DNA of 64,000 nucleotides from positions 62,001-126,000 of the forward strand of contig WIXG01000010.1 of assembly GCA_009869945.1 (NCBI GenBank), in the 5' to 3' direction. This DNA comes from Mesaphorura yosii. Lineage: Eukaryota > Arthropoda > Collembola > Poduromorpha > Tullbergiidae. Below the pieces are notes generated by a model that did not search any database, was not told the origin of the DNA, and saw only the letters and a program-made list of their open reading frames with translations. The translations under genes were made by a program, and so were the position numbers. This document shows positions 25,056 to 39,027 of this stretch, in pieces; position 1 is the stretch's first letter, and each line of letters opens with the position of its first letter.

Positions 25056-25567
25056 ATGGATCTTAAAGTGATTAGCATTCTTGCCCTTGTCGTCGTGATC
25101 GGTTCCTTCATGAACCTGCACACAGTCGAGTCCAGACCTTCATACAACGCTCTACCACTCTACCACAACAGATTGGACACGGAAAGAAGATCACAGAATG
25201 AGTGTGAAAATTCGGTAAGTGCAGAATGATAAAACGACAAAATGAGAATGCAACATTTCTTCTTTCTCCTTTCTCCTGCCTTAGGGGCAAAGTGAAACTT
25301 TCTCCGCGTTCGCGTCATAAAATCTCTGCCTGAAGGCGCAAATTAATCACACTGACTTCTCATTACAATTCGTATTTGTATTTGCAGCCTGAAGTCCGTG
25401 AAGTCTGTCAACGTTGTGCCAAGGCCATCAAATCCCGCTACGTGTACCCGATGTGCTGTGAGAGGAAGGAGAATACGAGAGAATGGTGTGACAAGTTTCT
25501 AAATTTTGGCCTCTCCTCGTCGAGTAGCAGTAGTAGCGGAGGCAGCAGTAGTGTCTCTGTGGACTAA
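25056..25567 (+). CDS. Small secreted six-cysteine peptide, unknown family
   Basis: Two coding exons, 25056-25214 and 25388-25567, encode 112 residues. The ATG sits one base after a TTTTACAG acceptor, so there is also a 5' UTR intron. Residues 1-26 are a clear signal peptide ending near VES|RPSY. The mature part has six cysteines spaced C-x9-C-x2-C-x12-CC-x9-C, including SRYVYPMCCERK and REWCDKFLNFG, followed by a serine/glycine tail of about 20 residues. The first cysteine is on exon 1 and the other five on exon 2. The size, signal peptide and compact Cys pattern suggest a secreted peptide hormone or a defence or structural peptide. I do not recognise the family: it is not trissin, neuroparsin or insulin-like by Cys spacing. 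There is no dibasic-flanked amidation site. The adjacent CC pair and NFG element are the features to search with. Confidence 0.8.
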
Positions 25568-26754: not shown

Positions 26755-28049
26755 ATGAAGGCGTTTTACTGTGTTCATCTCACCCTCACAATAATCGGGG
26801 CCTTTCTTCATGGAGAAGCACTCGGACAAGGTAAGCCTGAGATAGATTGAAATTCACTGGCCACTGGTGGGGAATTTTGTTTTGATGCACTAGAGTCTGG
26901 ATTGCAATTGCAATTGTCGTATCAATTTCAGAGGAGTGGCAGCTCGGTCCATTCATCAAGCAGGACAATGTTAATCCAGTCCTTGATAAGCTAAACACGA
27001 CCACATTCCTGTGTCCGATGCGTGAGGAGCTCGTCTACTGGGAAGCCAAAGATGTGTTCAATCCGACGGCACTTGTGCGAGATGGGAAAATACATTTGCT
27101 GTACAGAGCCGAGGACGAAGTGGGCGAATTCCACGGCACGTCACGCATTGGACTTGCAATCAGTGAAGATGGCCTAACATTTGATCGCGAAACAGAGCCG
27201 ATATTTTATCCAGCGAATGACACACAGGAAATTTACGAATGGGAAGGTGGCTGCGAGGATCCGCGAATTGTTGAGGATGAAAACGGGACTTACTACATGA
27301 CGTACACGGCGTACGATGGAGTCGTGGCGAGGTTACTCATTGCGAGCAGCGAGGATCTTCGAGTTTGGGTTAAGCATGGACCAATTTTCAAGAGCACGAA
27401 CAGCGAGAGTTTTATTGACCTCTGGTCCAAGTCCGGATCTATCGTCACAAACCTTGTCGGTGAGAAATTCGTAGCCACTAAAATACAAGACAAGTACTGG
27501 ATGTACTGGGGAGATACGAATATCTACTATGCGACATCAACTGATTTGGTCAACTGGACTCCTGGCACCAACGAAGCCACGCATGAGCTGGTGCCTGTAT
27601 TTGGACCAAGAACCCGTATGTTTGACAGCGACCTGGTTGAACCTGGACCACAGGCCATCATGACAGACGACGGTATTCTGCTCGTTTACAATGGACGCAA
27701 CAAGGCAGAAGAGCAAGGCGGTGACCCAACACTTGCTGAAGGAACTTATTCTGCTGGACAGATTCTGTTGAACAAGACACACCCTTGGCTTCCGATTGAG
27801 GGCAAGCGGTCTCAAGAGTACTTTCTGACGCCGGACAAAGACTACGAGATCATTGGACAAATTGGCAATGTTGTTTTCCTCGAAGGACTTGTTTATTACA
27901 AAGAAAAATGGTTTCTGTACTACGGGACGGCTGACTCTCGAATTGCGGTCGCAGTTTCAGATTCTAGTTGGCTAGTTACACCATCTCAGTTTATTTTCAA
28001 TCTTTACTGTTACTTTGTGCTTTCCTATTTTATTATGTATAATGATTGA
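26755..28049 (+). CDS. Secreted GH130-family glycosidase/phosphorylase
   Basis: GH130 enzymes are five-bladed beta-propellers that act on beta-mannosides, most by phosphorolysis and some by hydrolysis; they are mainly bacterial. Two exons (26755-26830 and 26932-28049) encode 397 residues. Exon 1 is almost exactly a signal peptide (MKAFYCVHLTLTIIGAFLHG), so the product is likely secreted, probably in the gut. Family hallmarks: NPTALVRDGKIHLLYRAED near 69-87, RIGLAISEDG near 97, GGCEDPRIVED near 131-141 (the DPR segment carries the likely catalytic Asp), FDSDLVEPGPQA in the second half, and LYYGTADSRIAVAV near the C-terminus. The last 25 residues (hydrophobic, ending FIMYND) go beyond the usual family end. 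Together, a bacterial-type family, a dedicated signal-peptide exon and a GTAAGC..TTTCAG intron suggest acquisition by horizontal transfer followed by eukaryotic adaptation. Phosphorylase versus hydrolase cannot be decided here. ATTAAA at 28053 may be the poly(A) signal. Confidence 0.88.
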
Positions 28050-28133: not shown

Positions 28134-29713
28134 TTAGATTGTGGCGGTCTTGAACGTGACAAACATGTTAAACGTCAGTTGAAAGCAGTTGCTGATGCTG
28201 ACGAGCACGATTGAGTTCTCGAAGCTGTACAGCGACCCCGCCATGCATTTCAGGACGCTACACGACTTGCGGAAAGTCTTCAAGTAAACTCGCTCGTATT
28301 TGTCGCTGACGTGGTCAATTTCCCGATCCCACTGAAGTAAGTAATTTTTGCTCTCCTTATTGATGAGACCACCAGCTCCCAATGCGGTTGACGCTTCGAA
28401 AATACAACGAATTCCACAGAAGGGAAAGACGATGTACGCAAGGAATGGGAGTGCCGTGTAACGGATAGTTCCAAAGAACAGCATGCCGGCAATCGTAAAA
28501 AGAATCGACGGGAAGAATTGCAGATAGAGCCTGAATGCGTCGTTGATGACGGCAACGAGTGTCTGGATGTAACGGTAATGCTGGGCAGCAGTGTCGAAAT
28601 CCAACGGCGCCCTTTGATTTGGTGGAATATTCCTACAATGAGAATAAAGCTTGTATTAGCAAAATACTTAATTTCTATTTGGCGTAGTTTTACCCTTCAA
28701 AACGCCGAACTTCCAATTTGATCCAAGTCAGACCCAGAAAGCAAGTTGCCCAGTTAAAAGTCCAGGCGAACATCATGTCCGATCTGGAACAGGTAACAGA
28801 AACAGATAGGAACTCTTAGAAAAACGACACATGACAGAAAATCATGTAAAGTGTTGACACCAGGACGTGTCCCACACTTACATTATCCAATTCTCGAGCA
28901 GCACAAAGAGCCCCTTGAAATGCACTGGCGCCGGATCGTCGGACGGTGTCTGGCATTCGAAGACTAGTGAACTCATGTACTGTGGAGCACAAGGTATATC
29001 AAACAACACGGTGGAATGTGCTGGCGGATTCGTGAACAGTAGGAATGTGCTAATTATTACGAACAGTGACACCCAATCAAAATATTGGCTCTCCGCCGGC
29101 TTCTGAAACTCTTCGATTTCTTCAACTGGATTTCTGTCAGCCTTTTCTTTCATCGGCGACGCGGGTTTCTTCATCAGAGGCTCTGAAAAGCATAAGATTG
29201 TACAATTCGCTAGAAGATTTATCACTGAAGTTATACATTTGTTCCCCCAACCTACCAAGTTTGGCCTGAAAAGAGCCATTCATTCCCGAATAAACTGAAA
29301 ATAACCTGCTGGTCCTAACCTTTCTGATCGCGCTGAATCTGTTTCGGCTTACTTCTTGCCCTCGTTCTGTCTAGCTCATTCATAAGCGCATTTGCGAAGA
29401 ATAGAACGGCTCCACGCCGAATTTCGAATTGGATGTTGCACATTACGACCAAGCCGTAAGCGGCGACCCAAATGATGTTCATGATACGGATTCTTGATGA
29501 CATATCTTGCTTGAGTGACGAGACCAGACGGAATAGCATGAACGAAAATGTGACCAGGACAAAATAACGCCTGATGTGGTACAGCACCATGTGCCAGACT
29601 GAAGCTGGCTTCAAACGAAATGCCCTTCGATCCCAAGCGTAGGGATAAATTTTCATGAAGCAGCCACATGCCATAATCAAGTCGACCGCCTTCCTGCCTC
29701 GTTCAGACAACAT
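28134..29713 (-). CDS. Multi-pass membrane protein A, receptor-like (tandem paralogue)
   Basis: Four exons join in phase: 29713-29320, 29182-28882, 28783-28694, 28632-28134, giving 427 residues. Hydrophobic segments suggest about seven membrane passes: two in exon 1 (around YFVLVTFSFMLFRLVSSL and IIWVAAYGLVVMCNIQFE), one or two in exon 2 (VSLFVIISTFLLF; FVLLENWII), one in exon 3 (FAWTFNWATCFLGLTWIK), two or three in exon 4 (ILFTIAGMLFFGTIRY, FLAYIVFPFCGIRCIFEA, and the C-terminal segment). A short polar loop separates the exon 1 and exon 2 halves. Conserved with paralogue B: the exon 1 start (M-x-SE-x-GRKA), GIRCIFEA-x-TAL, QWDREI, VLKCMAGSLYSFENSI. It lacks the TY-xxxxx-QF ending of insect gustatory receptors. 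I think it belongs to a large springtail family of receptor-like proteins, from recall only; ligand and function are unknown. Its stop lies 84 bases from the end of the convergent GH130 gene. Confidence 0.82.
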
Positions 29714-30563
29714 TTAGCTGGGGCTGCACTTGAATTTCAATTAATTGAAAGAAAAATAAGAAATGAGGAAAGAAAGCACAAAGCCAAAGTCAGTGTCGCA
29801 AACTGATGAGCGCTGAAATCATAAATCGGGTCGGGAATCTTTAGAAAGTCAAGAAGTCAAAACTCCAGATCGTGGTGCATGTTTATATAACCTTAAGACT
29901 CACACAAAGAGTAAAGATGCCTTCATTCCAATTAAATATTAAGTGCGTCTGCAAGGTTGGTTGAGCCTAACAATTGATAATCACGTAATTGGCGAAGGAG
30001 AGAAGAGAAGACATCGATTAGAATTAGACAAGTAGCGTCTTCAAACTTCACACAATTACAATTTCTCAAGGCTAAGCTAATGTGGTGCGAAACATAACAT
30101 ATAATTAACATTAAAGTTTAATTTTGTTAATACTGAATAAACAAGCCAGCGAGCCTTTGACGAGCGTGTGCTTCCAATTTCGGTCCTGTCTTTTTATTCA
30201 CGACGGTCGGGCGAGTAATTAACGAATTTTTGGGACAAGCCCGAATGTGCATGAGTTTGACCCTGGTTCTTAAATAGACAAAAGTGGGCAGGACAGGAGT
30301 TTAGTAGACAATCATACCGAATTAAGAAATACCCTGCGTGACTAACGATTATTGAGAAAATTGACGAGTTGATGCATGCACTTCATTTCTCAAAGAGACC
30401 ATTAATTCGAGTTGAATAATGCCATTTTCTCTGGTCAACTTGCACACTTTCAGGATTACATTAATTGCGAAATTACTACAGTCACTGAATTACTGAATTT
30501 ATTATTGAAGCGCCAATACTTGCTTTCTATTCAACTAGGCTACGTTCATAACTTATGAAAAGC

Positions 30564-32055
30564 TTAAATTCGGCCTAATTGACCATCACCTTTGAAAGCA
30601 ACACACAAGTTGAGTGTTAATTGTGCGCAGTTGGTGAGACTCACAAGCAAAATGGAGTTCTCAAAGCTGTACAGTGATCCTGCCATGCATTTTAGGACGT
30701 TGCATGATTTACGGAATGATTTCAAGTGTCTTTTAGCATCCACATCCTTTGCCTGGTCTATTTCACGGTCCCACTGTGTCAGCCAACCTTTGCTTGCTTC
30801 GTTGATATGTCCTGCAGCCCAAAGCGCAGTGGCCGCCTCGAAAATGCATCGGATTCCGCAGGCAGGGAACACGATGTACGCATGAAACGGCAGACTGACA
30901 TAGCGAATCATTCCAAACAGGAGCATTGCAGCGATGCTGAACATGAGTGTCGGGAAACAGCCAAGATACAGCTGAAAAGTGTCGTTTAGGACAGCGACTT
31001 GAGTTTGAAGGAAACGATACTGCTTCATTTCATCGTCCAGGTTAAATGGCTCCCTATTGTTATGAGGTATTGAGCCCTCGAAATGTACCTCACGCTTGAT
31101 CCATGTTAGTCCCAAAATACAGATGACCCAATTGAATGTCCAGACGAAGAGCATGTCTGATCTGGAAAAGCAAGAAGAAGGCAATCTTGAGTACACGAAT
31201 TGACACTTGGCAAAATATTATTGTAAATTGTCGTTCATATTTAATACATGATCCAGTTTTCCCACAAGACGAAGAACACTTTCCAATGCGTGGGCACCGG
31301 ATCGTCCATCGGCGTTTGGCAATTGAAAATGGCCGAAGTTGGGTAGTGTGGGGCACAGGGTATGTCAATCACAATCAATGAATGGACAGCAGGGTTTACT
31401 AGCAGGAGGTATGTGCCAAAAACGACGGATTTGGACACCCAATTAATGACGCCTGCTTCATTTGTACCCACAACTACTTCTTCTGCCTTGTTCGCTTTCG
31501 TTAGCGTTGGATTTGAAAGCTTTTCTTCATCCAATCTTTCCATTGCCAACTCTGCTGCTGCTGCCGGTTCCGGTTTCTGCTGCTTGCCCTCTTCTTGCTC
31601 TTCATTCTTTTGCTTATATTTGCGGTCTAACACAAATGGACAATGAAAACATGCTTAGCTCGGAACGATTAACAGTCATTAACGCAGTTACTTATTTCAG
31701 GTCTCGTGCCGTCAAGCTCGGCCAGTACGGAGTTGGCAAAGAACAAGATGGCACAGCGTCTCTTCTCAAATTGTACGTTACAAATGACGAGGAGACCGTA
31801 AGCCAGCGCCCAGATGATATTTGTGACACGAATCCTTGATGGTACATTCTGATGCAGAGAATAAACCAAACGCAGTGTGATGTAGACGAAGGTTATCAGC
31901 GCGAGGAAGCGTCTGCAATGATACAGCGCCAAATGCCATGATGGTGCTTTTCTTAGGCGGAATGCTTCATTATCCCAAGTGTACGGGAAGATTTTCAAGA
32001 AGCATCCGTACGCAAAGATTTTATTCAGTGCTTTCCTTCCTGTTTCGGAGATCAT
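30564..32055 (-). CDS. Multi-pass membrane protein B, receptor-like (tandem paralogue)
   Basis: Three exons in phase (32055-31692, 31626-31248, 31161-30564) give 446 residues. It aligns with protein A along its whole length: start MISETGRKALNKIFAYGCFLK, IIWALAYGLLVICNVQFEKR, LWENWII at an exon end, SDMLFVWTFNWVICILGLTW, GIRCIFEAATALWAAGHINE, QWDREI, VLKCMAGSLYSFENSI. Introns 1 and 2 match A in position and phase (1 and 2). A's third intron is absent: the FEGSIPHNNREP region is continuous. The loop between exon 1 and exon 2 is longer and rich in Glu, Lys and Ala. The ATG at 32055 is preferred because it aligns with the start of A; the frame is open upstream to 32214. The gene is divergent from the gustatory receptor gene, about 600 bases away. 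Function is inferred only as chemosensory-type. Confidence 0.82.
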
Positions 32056-32656: not shown

Positions 32657-34224
32657 ATGGCAAAACTACGAGAGATTTTCAAAGCATTAAAATCATTTAC
32701 AAATAGTGGCAATTTCACCTGCAACTCTTACCTATACTACTTTATATTTCCAATAAACTTTAGCTACTACACATTTTTGTCTCCAATTCGAATTCGGCAT
32801 GATCCTGTGACGAAAAAGTACTGCTTGCAGTCTGGGAGACTTCACCGGGTTCTGTGCCGATTCGTATTGTTCTTCATGGTGTTTGAGCTCTGCTCTGCGA
32901 TTGTGTTCGTGTTATTGGACCGGAAAAATGGCGAATCAGAATCAGGACAGACTGGAAGAGAAATTTCACAGATTTTGCAGCGCCCTATGCCTCATTACAA
33001 TATCATGATTCGTGGCTTCGAATTTCTAAACTATGGGGCGACGCTTTGGTATGGCCTCTGCTTCGCGTACACATTTTGGAAACCAAGTCACTTCAAGCAG
33101 TTTCAGCTGGTGTTGATAGTTGCTGACGGGCTGCAATTTCGACACCAAAGTAAGCGCAGAGGGCCGAGCCTGGTGAGTCTTCCTCTTTCGCAAATGCCCC
33201 TAAAATGAAATATCTCACATAAAGTCTTCTGCCAGATTCACGTCTTTGGAATTTTGGCCCCGTGTTTCCTACTTTCGATGGACATAGTCGACCTGATCTC
33301 GCCAGACAAGTTGGCCACAAAGATCCACATGCACAGCATGTTGGAATATTTGCATGAGTTCTTTACGGAGGCACAAATTCTTTATTTATTCCAATCGGAG
33401 CCGATTCAATCCGTGTACGAAATGCATTCGCTGCACGGAGTGATATACACGAGCTTCACTCTCTTTCTAACCGGTATTCACTTTCTAATTGGAATTCCGC
33501 TCTTCTTCTTGGATCAATTGTGCGATTTGGTCATCATCTTGACAACAGTCGCTGTCTGGTGCTTTGTAAGAGAATTTGAGCATTACTACCAGGAGGTCCC
33601 GATTACTAAACTGGATTCCGTAAATTTGAAGTTTGTAAGTATTAAGTGTGACCCGTGCATGTACAAGTCTCAGTTTCAAGGCATTTTCTATCCTCAGGTG
33701 CTTATCCAATACGAGAAGGTGCGACAACTTGTGCGAACCGTCAATGAGATCATGAGCACTTTATTCCTTTGCTACGTGACAGTTTCGGTGCCTTTTTATG
33801 TAACGAGGCCGGCTTCTTATGCTCTTGATTATCACCAATCAGGATTGATCTACATTTGCGTATATTTCGTGTATGTGCTTATTTTCTTCCTCGAACTCTG
33901 CATTGCTGCTGACATCAACTCGAAGGTAATGTGAAGCATCGAGCATCGGTCGAGGATCTTCACCTCAGGGTCAATAAACACCCGTGACTAATTTTAATGC
34001 AGGCAGGTAAATTCTACCGCTGGATATCCGACAACTTCAGGTGCGTCGAGTCACGCCAATTAATCTCAATACAAATGGACATGAGCACGAGCCAAATTGC
34101 TCTGCGTGGCGGTGGCTTCTTTTCTATTACCGACCAGTTTCTTGGAACCATGATGAGCATACTTATTACATATTCCGTCTTGGTTATACAATTTAACAAT
34201 GTCAGAATCTTTACGAGCACGTGA
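32657..34224 (+). CDS. Gustatory receptor (7tm_7-type chemoreceptor)
   Basis: Arthropod gustatory receptors are seven-pass, ligand-gated cation channels with a cytoplasmic N-terminus. Four exons, all phase 0 (32657-33172, 33236-33634, 33698-33925, 34003-34224), encode 454 residues. The protein has about seven hydrophobic segments, among them LCRFVLFFMVFELCSAIVFV, FGILAPCFLLSMDIVDL, IPLFFLDQLCDLVIILTTV, FLCYVTVSVPFYVTR and YICVYFVYVLIFFLELCIA. The last exon ends with the family signature: ITDQFLGTMMSILITYSVLV then IQFN, which is TY followed by five residues and QF. YEKVRQLVRTVNEI resembles the intracellular loop before TM6. The intron at 33635-33697 is 63 bases with no in-frame stop, so unspliced RNA would encode 21 extra residues. 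A donor at 33173 (CTG|GTGAGT) is used rather than the upstream GTAAGC, because only it keeps phase. ATTAAA at 34229 may be the poly(A) signal. Confidence 0.87.
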
Positions 34225-34672: not shown

Positions 34673-35539
34673 ATGGCTGGAGCTGCACTGAGACGTCTAA
34701 TGGCCGAGTACAAACGTAAGACACTCTGTAAACTAGCGACTAGCGCATTGATTGAGTTGCAACCTTGAACATCTTTGGTTTGTTATCTTTCATTTCAGAA
34801 TTGAGCTTAAATCCACCTGAAGGAATAATGGCAGGTCCTGTGGACGAAGAGAACTATTTTGAGTGGGATGCCCTTATCACGTAAGTTGAACTGAGAGATT
34901 CTTGTGAAGTGACAGGTAGACAAGTTCACTGCATGCAGTATGCTTGAATTTATGCAGTGGCCCGGAAGGAACCTGCTTTGATGGAGGGGTCTTCCCGACT
35001 AAACTTACATTTCCAACTGATTACCCACTGAGCCCTCCGACTATGAAGTTCACTTGCGACATGTTTCATCCAAATGGTACGTTAGAATTTTACTTGTTCC
35101 ACCAACCACCAGTTAAATTATATCAGAACAAACTGTTGATAAACTATGATCTATTATGTTGTCGAATGTTGCAGTTTATCCTGATGGTCGTGTTTGCATT
35201 TCAATTCTTCACGCTCCTGGTGACGATCCTACTGGCTATGAGTCTCGAGCTGAACGTTGGAGTCCAGTACAGTCCGTTGAAAAGATCTTGCTCTCAGTTG
35301 TCAGTTTATTGGCAGGTAAAGTAATTTTGTAACCTATTGATCGTGATGACTACGGTTTGGATAATAAATGTTACATCGCAAAGTGCAAAGTACAATCTCT
35401 GATTCTGTTTCACCCAGAACCAAACGACGAAAGTCCAGCTAATGTCGATGCGGCCAAGATGTGGAGGGATGACCGCGCAGAATTCGAGAAGAGAGCCATT
35501 CGACTCGTTCGGAAGACTTTGGATCTACCTCTTCCATAA
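34673..35539 (+). CDS. UBE2G2: Ubiquitin-conjugating enzyme E2 G2 (Ubc7 type)
   Basis: UBE2G2 is the E2 that works with ER-membrane ubiquitin ligases in ER-associated degradation, typically building Lys48 chains. Five exons (34673-34715, 34799-34880, 34958-35076, 35175-35315, 35418-35539) encode 168 residues, close to the usual 165. The start [16 protein letters not shown] is nearly identical to the vertebrate protein. The catalytic cysteine is Cys89 in [18 protein letters not shown], after the HPN motif (FHPNVYPDG). The acidic-loop insertion that marks the Ubc7/UBE2G class ([12 protein letters not shown]) is present, as is [16 protein letters not shown]. The C-terminus (KTLDLPLP) is slightly longer than in vertebrates. 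AATAAA at 35702-35707 is a good poly(A) signal. Confidence 0.97.
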
Positions 35540-35701
35540 ACCCTGGAGTCTGTAGTTTCACTCTGTGTCTTTGTCAGAACTGGAGAGGAAATGTGAATTG
35601 CCATCAAATTAAGTACGCATTGGCCTCCGAAGAGTCTACCGCGTTCTGCATCCCTGCATTTACGCGAGGAATTTTTTTCAATATTGTGTGTCAAGTCTAA
35701 G

Positions 35702-36656: not shown

Positions 36657-39027
36657 TCATGTTGGCTTGTCCTCGAAATAGTAATGTGGTGCATGTAAGT
36701 ACTCCAGCAGCGGATTGGGTAGTGGGAGGCTGTTAATCAGGTCGCAACGAACTTGTTTCAAAATTGCGAATCTGTCGAAATTGGAAAGAAAATACTTAAT
36801 TATAACAAGTATTACTCTTTGAGATGGCAATGCCCGGCCCGATTAGCTCATGGAATACGATACACTCACCTGCACATGTGCTGCAACGATCTCATATGCC
36901 GGAAGCGACTGTAAGGATGAATCAACTGAACCCGCATAGGACCTAGGACGGGGCGCCGATGCAGAAAGAATAAATATCGACCAGATCTTGAATGCGCAAT
37001 GGCTTTCTCCACAAAGTCCATGATTGTGCTGGCTTTGAAGCGGGTCATGGGCCCGAAACTGAAGTTGCCGTGATCGTGTTCAATGCGGACGTGGCGCACT
37101 AAGCCGTTGAGCTTGAAGGTCAGCGAGAAAATGTAATGCGAATCACTGCTATCACGAACAATGAACGACCCATCGGGTTCACCACGCAGCAAATCTTCTG
37201 CTGCTTCACTTGAGAGAGGTCCCCAGTACCATCCGCAATCTTTCACTTTTTCTATGCTGGCTGCGATGTCACTGGGTTCCAAAGGACTTGAGTGAACAGA
37301 TGGGTCGCCTATCTCCTCGCAATGGAAATGAAGCTGGTCCAAAACTTCCTCATCAACATATTTGCAAGGAGTTGGAGGTAGAGCCCGTGACGCAAGTGGA
37401 GCTTCCATTGCTACACTGGGTGAGGTTTCGGCATGCCTGAAATTATAAAATTACACGAGAAATTATGAGAATGATGAGCCTTTAATTGAAATCTTACTCG
37501 ACTAAAGGTTTACTGGTCACTTACTTTGGTTTTGTTTCTTCTTCTGGAGCTGCAGAGCCGCCCGCCAACAAAGATTTGCCTTTATTGTGTGAACGTGGTT
37601 TTCGGAAAAGACCCAGCAGTGCATCCCCAATTGTTCTCTTGGGCTTTCCAGACGATCGCGTTCCAATCGCAATGGTTAAATCTGTGCTTCCTGATTGTCC
37701 CCGCTCTTTCATACTCTCAGGTACTTGGTTTTCTTGATGCTGACAGTCTGCCTCCGTCGAGCTATTTGTTCGCCTGCGCTTTTTCTTCGTACTTTTAGCC
37801 TTCTGCACCCGGTTCGGTTTCTTATCAGTCTTGTCGGAAGCCCCTTCTTCGTGGGTGAGATTATTATTCGTTTCTAAGCATATCGAGCCATCGGCGGGTG
37901 TTTGCTGCGTTCTCATTTTGGTTGACGCTGAATTCCTTGATTTAATTTCACCTGGCACAGCTTTGCCTTTCGTGACATCAGCGACGCTCACCTTTTGAAC
38001 ATTGATGTTGTTGCTAGGATTCGTCAATCCATGTTTAAATAATTTCAAAGCTGAGGTGCGTTCATGATTTGACACGTTATCATCGGAGTTTTTCCCTGTT
38101 TCAGAGGACGTCGTTAAAGGAAATGAAGCGGTACACGCTGTGCTGTTGGGAATATTGTCCACCGGTAAGGAGTAACTTGCATCACAAACAAGAGAGGAGG
38201 CCACAGATTCTCCTGGTCTGAATAAAGGACTTTTGAGATCTATTGGTGGTGTTTCTTTGGTGTCGGCGCAGGATTCGGAAGAAGCTGAAGTTTTTGGTAT
38301 TGCATTTCTGTCGTTTTCCCTTAGTTTGCAGGATTGACAACTGGGTTCAGTGTTCAACATTTTTGAAGTAGACTGTATAGACTCATGTCCGCCAAGTGGT
38401 CCACTTTGCAGGTTTGGACTACTCGGAGCGAGGCTAAATGAATCTAAAATGAAAACCAAAACGTTTTACGTATTTTACTGCTACATAAATGTCGTTCGGA
38501 TTCTAAAAATAAAGAAAGCGTCAATATTCACCTGGAACCAAAGTAATGCGACTCTCTTTGCCCACTTCCGACGGCGGCAGTGGAGATTGACAATCTCCTT
38601 TGAGCATCTGAACTTCCTGCTTCAGGAATTATGGTCGCAATGATCATAGCCTCATTCAGAATGTTGAAAGAAATTTTATCAGCGAAGGTGCACAGGACGT
38701 CCCTCTCTTTTATGAATGTGTAGATAAAGTTCTCATCAATTGTTGGGGTGAAATCACGAAATGGTTTTGGTGGAGGAAGAGTTGTCAACGATGTGCTTTG
38801 AGTTGGTGATGGCGAAAGAGATCCTTTTGCTTGAATGACCACGACACGATTACTAGAGCAGGGATTGTTATTTTGCGGACTAAAATCTTGAAACTCTGTA
38901 AGAACGCAATAGATCACTTTATGAAATGATGACCACTCATTAAATGGTCAAGTTGAATATGGAAAAGGTTTAGCCAACCTGGTGGGGGTGAAATGCTAGA
39001 AACAATTATTTCATCTTCTCTTCTCAT
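36657..39027 (-). CDS. SOCS6/7: Suppressor of cytokine signalling, SOCS6/SOCS7 type
   Basis: SOCS proteins bind phosphotyrosine through SH2 and recruit an elongin B/C-cullin 5 ligase through the SOCS box, dampening receptor tyrosine kinase and JAK/STAT signalling. Five exons join in phase: 39027-38979, 38895-38532, 38433-37525, 37436-36870, 36771-36657, giving 667 residues. The long N-terminal half is polar, rich in Ser, Pro and Lys (PPPKPFRDF; a basic patch KSTKKKRRR), as in SOCS6/7. SH2 spans about 509-605: GWYWGPLSSEAAEDLLRGEP, GSFIVRDSSD with the phosphate-binding Arg535, and HVRIEHDHGNFSFG. The SOCS box follows: SLQHMCRFAILKQVRCDL and LPLPNPLLEYL. The exon 3 acceptor is a tandem pair (TTTTAGATTCATTTAG|C); only the second keeps the frame. 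The first exon is 16 codons and rests on phase and context only. SOCS6 and SOCS7 cannot be separated by eye. Confidence 0.92.

Follow-up and report, generated by a model that had tools for sequence, protein, structure and literature searches.

In the gustatory receptor (GR) BmGr9, the pore-lining seventh transmembrane segment (TM7) carries the motif 436-TYLVILIQF-444 (PMC9643425, PMC11100771). F444 and I440 are described as its closed hydrophobic gate, and channel opening as turning Q443 toward the pore, with T436 as the fulcrum (PMC11100771). The substitutions I440A and I440Q gave a higher resting current, which the authors interpret as constitutive conduction, and the matching Orco mutant behaved likewise (PMC9643425). 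Among springtails, a study of Holacanthella required a C-terminal T/SxxxxxxQF and reported 18 GRs (PMC5644144), the Campodea paper describes collembolan GRs as partially annotated, in one of three genomes (PMC6938034), and a text search of the Folsomia genome paper for chemoreceptor terms returned none. Here, we analyzed two adjacent genes, A and B, of the springtail Mesaphorura yosii, located at 28134-32055 of a 64,000 nt stretch (the window; contig WIXG01000010.1, positions 62,001 to 126,000). We consider it likely that they represent a tandem, divergent GR (7tm_7) subfamily with a rebuilt pore helix, whose gating probably differs from that of a standard homotetrameric GR.

Structure of genes A and B

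The first-pass annotation of the window had described a tandem multi-pass pair beside a gustatory receptor. This description was borne out: two intact genes on the minus strand fill the region, from the start of B at 32055 to the stop of A at 28134, and the neighboring gene C is a canonical GR. According to the splice models, gene A (29713-28134, minus strand) has four exons and encodes 427 amino acids, and gene B (32055-30564, minus strand) has three exons and encodes 446 amino acids. All five introns show GT-AG borders and range from 61 to 137 bp.

29320..29713, minus strand: gene A exon 1, N-terminus, TM1 and TM2, with a PYAW motif (splice model, GT-AG)
28882..29182, minus strand: gene A exon 2, cytoplasmic linker, TM3 and extracellular loop 2 (splice model)
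28694..28783, minus strand: gene A exon 3, TM4 (splice model)
28134..28632, minus strand: gene A exon 4, TM5-TM7 and stop (splice model)
31692..32055, minus strand: gene B exon 1 (splice model)
31248..31626, minus strand: gene B exon 2 (splice model)
30564..31161, minus strand: gene B exon 3, TM4-TM7 and stop (splice model)

The two proteins are identical at 244 of 425 aligned residues, and the motifs GIRCIFEA, QWDREI and VLKCMAGSLYSFENSI, noted previously, were found again in both. The dN is 0.32; the dS calculation returned no usable value (-1), which we took as saturation; read in this way, the values suggest constrained proteins. The intron phases deduced from exon lengths are 1,2,2 in A and 1,2 in B, hence phase 0 occurs in neither gene. 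The introns had been annotated as shared. For intron 2 this is correct, as it lies at the same place and in the same phase (2), within ENWI|ISDM; intron 1 has phase 1 in both genes, but its site falls in an unalignable part of the cytoplasmic linker, so that it is only likely to be shared. A third intron is present in A and lacking in B.

The previous estimate of about seven membrane passes fits A exactly, with seven hydrophobic segments, and B less closely, since hydropathy analysis yielded nine segments, seven strong ones like those of A and two weak ones (-4.4 and -3.0). The Lys and Arg residues of A are distributed over its loops as 8/4/15/1/6/1/9/1, that is 8, 15, 6 and 9 in the loops expected inside versus 4, 1, 1 and 1 in those outside, fitting a predicted topology with the N-terminus inside and the C-terminus outside. 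The N-terminal PYxW of the A/B family resembles the PYK of the canonical GRs C303 and C182. Both Cys residues of extracellular loop 2 (DxPCA...C) are conserved in 13/13 close segments covering this loop and may form a disulfide with each other.

28953..29000, minus strand: gene A extracellular loop 2, DIPCAPQYMSSLVFEC, containing the two conserved Cys
31319..31366, minus strand: gene B extracellular loop 2, DIPCAPHYPTSAIFNC (segment comparison)

Relationship to the GR superfamily

When searched individually against Pfam, A gave no match, and the sole match of B was 7tm_7 (E 0.14; 11.8 bits versus a cut-off of 26.6), colinear with profile positions 174-349. Neither protein matched 7tm_6. The previous statement that the pair could not be tied to a described family thus holds for single sequences. 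It does not hold for profiles. A profile-profile comparison of the family and its relatives with the canonical GRs of the same genome (the 93 Mb assembly that contains the window) scored 94.1%, and four further comparisons scored 94.2-96.4%, the alignments being colinear and in register over 150-375 columns. The controls, consisting of reversed alignments, 100 block permutations and five rhodopsin-like G protein-coupled receptors of this genome, remained at or below 0.4%.

Family searches with profile hidden Markov models (HMMs) covered 2188 open reading frames from chosen GR-enriched stretches plus the window, and their E-values apply to that set. After one iteration, the HMM matched six full-length proteins that are also matched by 7tm_7: C703 (49.5 bits), C862 (46.1), C410 (34.2), C275 (29.0), C303 (22.0) and C182 (19.7). 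C862 itself lies slightly under the Pfam 7tm_7 cut-off. The best reversed-sequence control reached 9.1 bits, a ceiling that holds for both HMM profiles tried. One tandem relative, C99:35712-36215, clears the Pfam 7tm_7 cut-off with 28.7 bits. The canonical profile in turn reaches solved GR structures; in the three alignments examined (8zdz, 8jm9 and 8x82), TM7 was in register. From these comparisons we conclude that A and B are divergent members of the GR superfamily, linked to it via intermediates in the same genome. A transporter or enzyme, named in the first-pass annotation as a finding that would speak against a receptor, was rejected because no such family was matched in the Pfam searches.

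An altered putative pore helix

TYxxxxxQF (TYhhhhhQF), previously described as lacking in A and B and present in their neighbor, is indeed not found in TM7 of either protein; gene C has it as TYSVLVIQF at 34168-34194 on the plus strand. The TM7 alignment placed the following motifs at the corresponding sites.

28152..28181, minus strand: gene A pore-helix motif QLTFNMFVTF, replacing TYhhhhhQF
30594..30623, minus strand: gene B pore-helix motif QLTLNLCVAF

This alignment comprises 51 segments with no inner gap, namely 12 rows of close relatives including A and B, 23 rows of wider relatives and 16 canonical rows. C275, C303 and C182 match the family HMM, yet were grouped as canonical since they keep Gln443, and the 7tm_7 matches C703, C862 and C410 were grouped with the wider rows. 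Segments were dropped if the reading frame ended before TM7 (such as C344, C608, C161, C834 and C97) or if TM7 was unreadable (C836, C476, C494, C20 and C878). C909, present in the first tree, stands outside the tally; F and S were read by eye at its two sites considered here.

Where BmGr9 has I440, 12/12 close rows carry Asn, 22/23 wider rows one of S, T, K, N and R, and 16/16 canonical rows V, I, F or L. The Q443 position shows the reverse, with Gln in all 16 canonical rows, V, I or L in all 12 close rows, and I, L, V or C in all 23 wider rows. Hence, on the A/B side a polar residue occupies the I440 position in 34/35 rows and Gln443 is found in 0/35. In total, 34 of the 51 rows are inverted in this sense, 16 are canonical, one is neither (C857b), and none is polar at both positions. 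The invariance of the Asn at the I440 position argues for selection. An aromatic residue lies one place further out in 12/12 close and 10/23 wider rows, and Thr436 and Tyr437 of BmGr9 correspond to Gln and Leu in A and B.

The GSLY/GxFF start of TM7 has equal spacing to the motif in A, B and canonical GRs. Relatives on C99 and C68 have TY or SY at the expected site (TYTINMLISF, TYTLTMAITF), which supports the register of the alignment; in the three C99 rows read, TY or SY is retained and QF is lost. No description of an inverted TM7 motif was found among the titles and abstract openings of the papers returned by our literature searches.

Family size and phylogeny

A search of the genome with A yielded 42 exon matches at E ≤1e-3. 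Seven of these fall on A and B, and the other 35 are on different contigs, where the best match had an E-value of 6.8e-129. With the relatives C471 (one frame of 529 codons) and C1041 (482 codons) as queries, 40 and 46 matches, respectively, were obtained at E 0.01, self-matches counted. Twelve A/B-type genes have a readable TM7, haplotype copies not being separated: A, B, C464, C1032, C1041, C471, two on C254, two on C541, C7 and C27. Extra family pieces occur on C878, C20, C836, C476 and C494; several carry stops or sit at contig ends. A profile built from A, B, C471 and C1041 picked up arrays on both C95 and C99, as well as genes on C701, C939, C81, C68, C567 and C584. The GR-like tandem arrays at C99:30500-37000 and on C95 bridge the A/B family and the canonical GRs. 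On C939, wider-type and canonical GR frames lie at most 7.6 kb apart.

A tree calculated without the TM7 columns gave nearly the same split as the partly motif-based groups: one branch (83/96) holds 14/15 canonical rows, and each of the 12 close rows falls on a second branch (99/98, starred). The remaining canonical row, C581, pairs with a long wider row, and in only 4% of bootstrap trees do the 15 make up one side of a branch. C611 and C241, part of the 51-row alignment, are outside this tree as they were too short once TM7 was cut. In the tree including TM7, A and B fall into a starred group of ten rows, and the close and wider rows appear to nest inside the GRs, with long deep branches. Both trees were rooted on C581 by choice.

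Gene C and other features of the window

Gene C lies head to head with B on the opposite strand, with 601 bp between the two starts. Its intron phases are 0,0,0. In Pfam, its last exon matched Trehalose_recp (1.3e-5) and 7tm_7 (0.0015), the latter under its cut-off. The tree including TM7, with its chosen root on C581, places gene C on a GR branch separate from A and B.

32657..34224, plus strand: gene C, canonical GR of 455 amino acids, exons 32657-33172, 33236-33634, 33698-33925 and 34003-34224

Adjoining gene A on its other side, a frame at 26886-28049 (plus strand) belongs to glycoside hydrolase family 130 (beta-1,4-mannooligosaccharide phosphorylase; Pfam E 3.5e-47), and a short putative signal-peptide exon was seen by eye upstream of it at about 26757. 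Such a frame in an animal genome is a candidate for horizontal transfer. Three further features were assigned by eye: a short two-exon gene at about 25065-25567 (plus strand) for a putative secreted, Cys-containing peptide with a Ser/Gly-rich tail, a small multi-exon gene at about 34676-35540 (plus strand) resembling UBE2G-type ubiquitin-conjugating enzymes, and a frame of SH2/SOCS-like appearance at 36866-37450 (minus strand).

Outside of the window, beta-lactam genes are a springtail hallmark, and a DIOX_N search of the genome gave 12 matches. One of these, the only one compared with the PDB, is a 2-oxoglutarate oxygenase of 362 codons in one frame at C759:874-1962 (minus strand). It matched PDB 9ovh at 7.6e-140 and with 469.5 bits, and is more distant from isopenicillin N synthase, for which the score was 94.5 bits. 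A contaminant contig and a transferred gene are candidate readings. A COX1 search, aimed at the species, gave no match.

Possible mechanism and alternative explanations

Judging from the homology and BmGr9, A and B would most likely contribute to a tetrameric cation channel as seven-pass subunits with the N-terminus inside, a ligand pocket within the membrane bundle, extracellular loop 2 as a lid, and TM7b lining the pore. The hydrophobic gate residue, I440 in BmGr9, would then be replaced by the invariant Asn and the gating Gln443 by an aliphatic residue. As a consequence, the gate of A and B could be leakier or sited elsewhere, or A and B could be ligand-binding subunits alongside a motif-bearing GR. 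In the simplest reading, A and B would be channel subunits whose gate is weaker or of another kind. Of the chemoreceptor or channel family suggested in the first-pass annotation, the receptor or channel part is supported by the profile homology and the topology of A, and the chemoreceptor part is putative. If the gate change is real, these genes are a natural experiment on GR channel opening. A bolder version, which we regard as quite improbable, extends the inverted pore helix across a large GR branch whose members could conduct at rest and close when ligand binds, or could be obligate partners of motif-bearing GRs. By the BmGr9 mechanism, an inverted helix would present a polar face at rest and a hydrophobic face once twisted. 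The obligate-partner version, if true, would mean a split like that of odorant receptors (ORs) and Orco, reached independently.

Several observations weigh against a divergent GR subfamily with a rebuilt pore helix. The TM7 rows were named by hand and grouped partly by motif, the TM7 register may be off by one residue, in which case the Asn would fall at position 439 and the terminal Phe would be conserved, and the canonical F444 itself is kept in just 10/16 canonical rows. Both A and B stay below the Pfam gathering cut-offs. The close-relative profile alone scored 82% against one canonical alignment and 5% against another, in register both times, and at most 19.5% (C182) against 17 single canonical sequences. 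An AlphaFold model of the last exon of B aligned with that of A (two sequences) had a mean pLDDT of 41 and was unusable. A PDB sequence search with A and two family profiles did not find a GR; this search is uninformative because a single canonical GR likewise yields none, while GRs were reached with a canonical profile of 11 sequences.

The first three alternatives considered here are sub-readings of the explanation favored above, and their likelihoods overlap. A and B could be ordinary GRs, acting in standard ligand-gated taste channels, homomeric or heteromeric, in which the TM7 changes reflect neutral drift in a fast-evolving family. GR families do diverge and lose introns, as in Daphnia, where Gr42-46 have lost all three phase-0 introns (PMC2680840), and variant TM7 motifs are reported for Drosophila Gr36, Gr59c/d and Grl36a/Grl43a (PMC9998090). 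The change seen here is, however, not scattered, with Asn in 12/12 close rows, a polar residue in 22/23 wider rows and no co-occurrence with Gln443 (0/51), and we give this explanation a minority chance. That A and B are ligand-binding subunits in need of a motif-bearing GR partner, in an OR/Orco-like division evolved separately, appears unlikely. In OR:Orco complexes, which have a 1:3 ratio, a shift of just the OR subunit is enough to open the pore (PMC11235583), and a canonical GR, gene C, starts head to head 601 bp from B; yet gene C comes from a separate GR branch, its adjacency may be chance, and 7tm_6 was not matched in the genome, in a search without a positive control.

A non-chemosensory role of GR-like proteins, such as one in internal tissues or during development, we consider rather improbable. 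Tandem, expanded multigene families are more typical of chemoreceptors, and the A/B family is both tandem and expanded, with at least 12 genes; C939 mixes wider-type and canonical GR frames, so that the wider group at least is intermingled with GRs. Such a role has precedents in cnidarian relatives of the superfamily, which act in pattern formation (PMC5644144), and in the broadly expressed GrlHz (PMC9998090). Finally, single sequences give no match above cut-off and the close-relative profile is weak, as would suit a new seven-pass membrane family merely resembling GRs. With the HMM iteration leading to recognized GRs and the in-register profile-profile homology via intermediates with clean controls, we rejected an unrelated family; it is already largely refuted and very improbable.

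Comparison with known systems

GR surveys may filter by the TM7 motif, and under the Holacanthella rule neither A nor B nor any of the 34 inverted rows would pass. If this branch exists in other springtails, motif-filtered GR repertoires are too small. With arthropod GRs (PF08395), A and B have in common the length, the seven passes with the N-terminus inside (by hydropathy), the PYxW/PYK-type N-terminal motif, the GSLY/GxFF start of TM7 with its spacing to the motif, and the profile homology. They differ by the Pfam score below cut-off, the missing TYhhhhhQF, the lack of any phase-0 intron and the pair of invariant Cys in extracellular loop 2. ORs with Orco belong to the same superfamily and likewise include divergent subunits with a relaxed TM7 motif, but a genome-wide 7tm_6 search, which had no working positive control, found none in the genome of A and B. 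Daphnia Gr42-46 are similar by description, as a divergent GR subfamily without the three ancestral phase-0 introns (PMC2680840).

The closest precedent for A and B are the Grl proteins of Drosophila, described as GR-like without the defining GR sequence features, nine of the ten fly Grls being restricted to flies (Benton and Himmel 2023, PMC9998090). The likeness is one of description and not of sequence, and in contrast to the Grls, the A/B family is tied to GRs by sequence profiles. Just as Grl36a adjoins canonical Gr genes (PMC9998090), A and B adjoin gene C, and they combine GR size and predicted topology without GR sequence signatures, as in the definition of the Grls.
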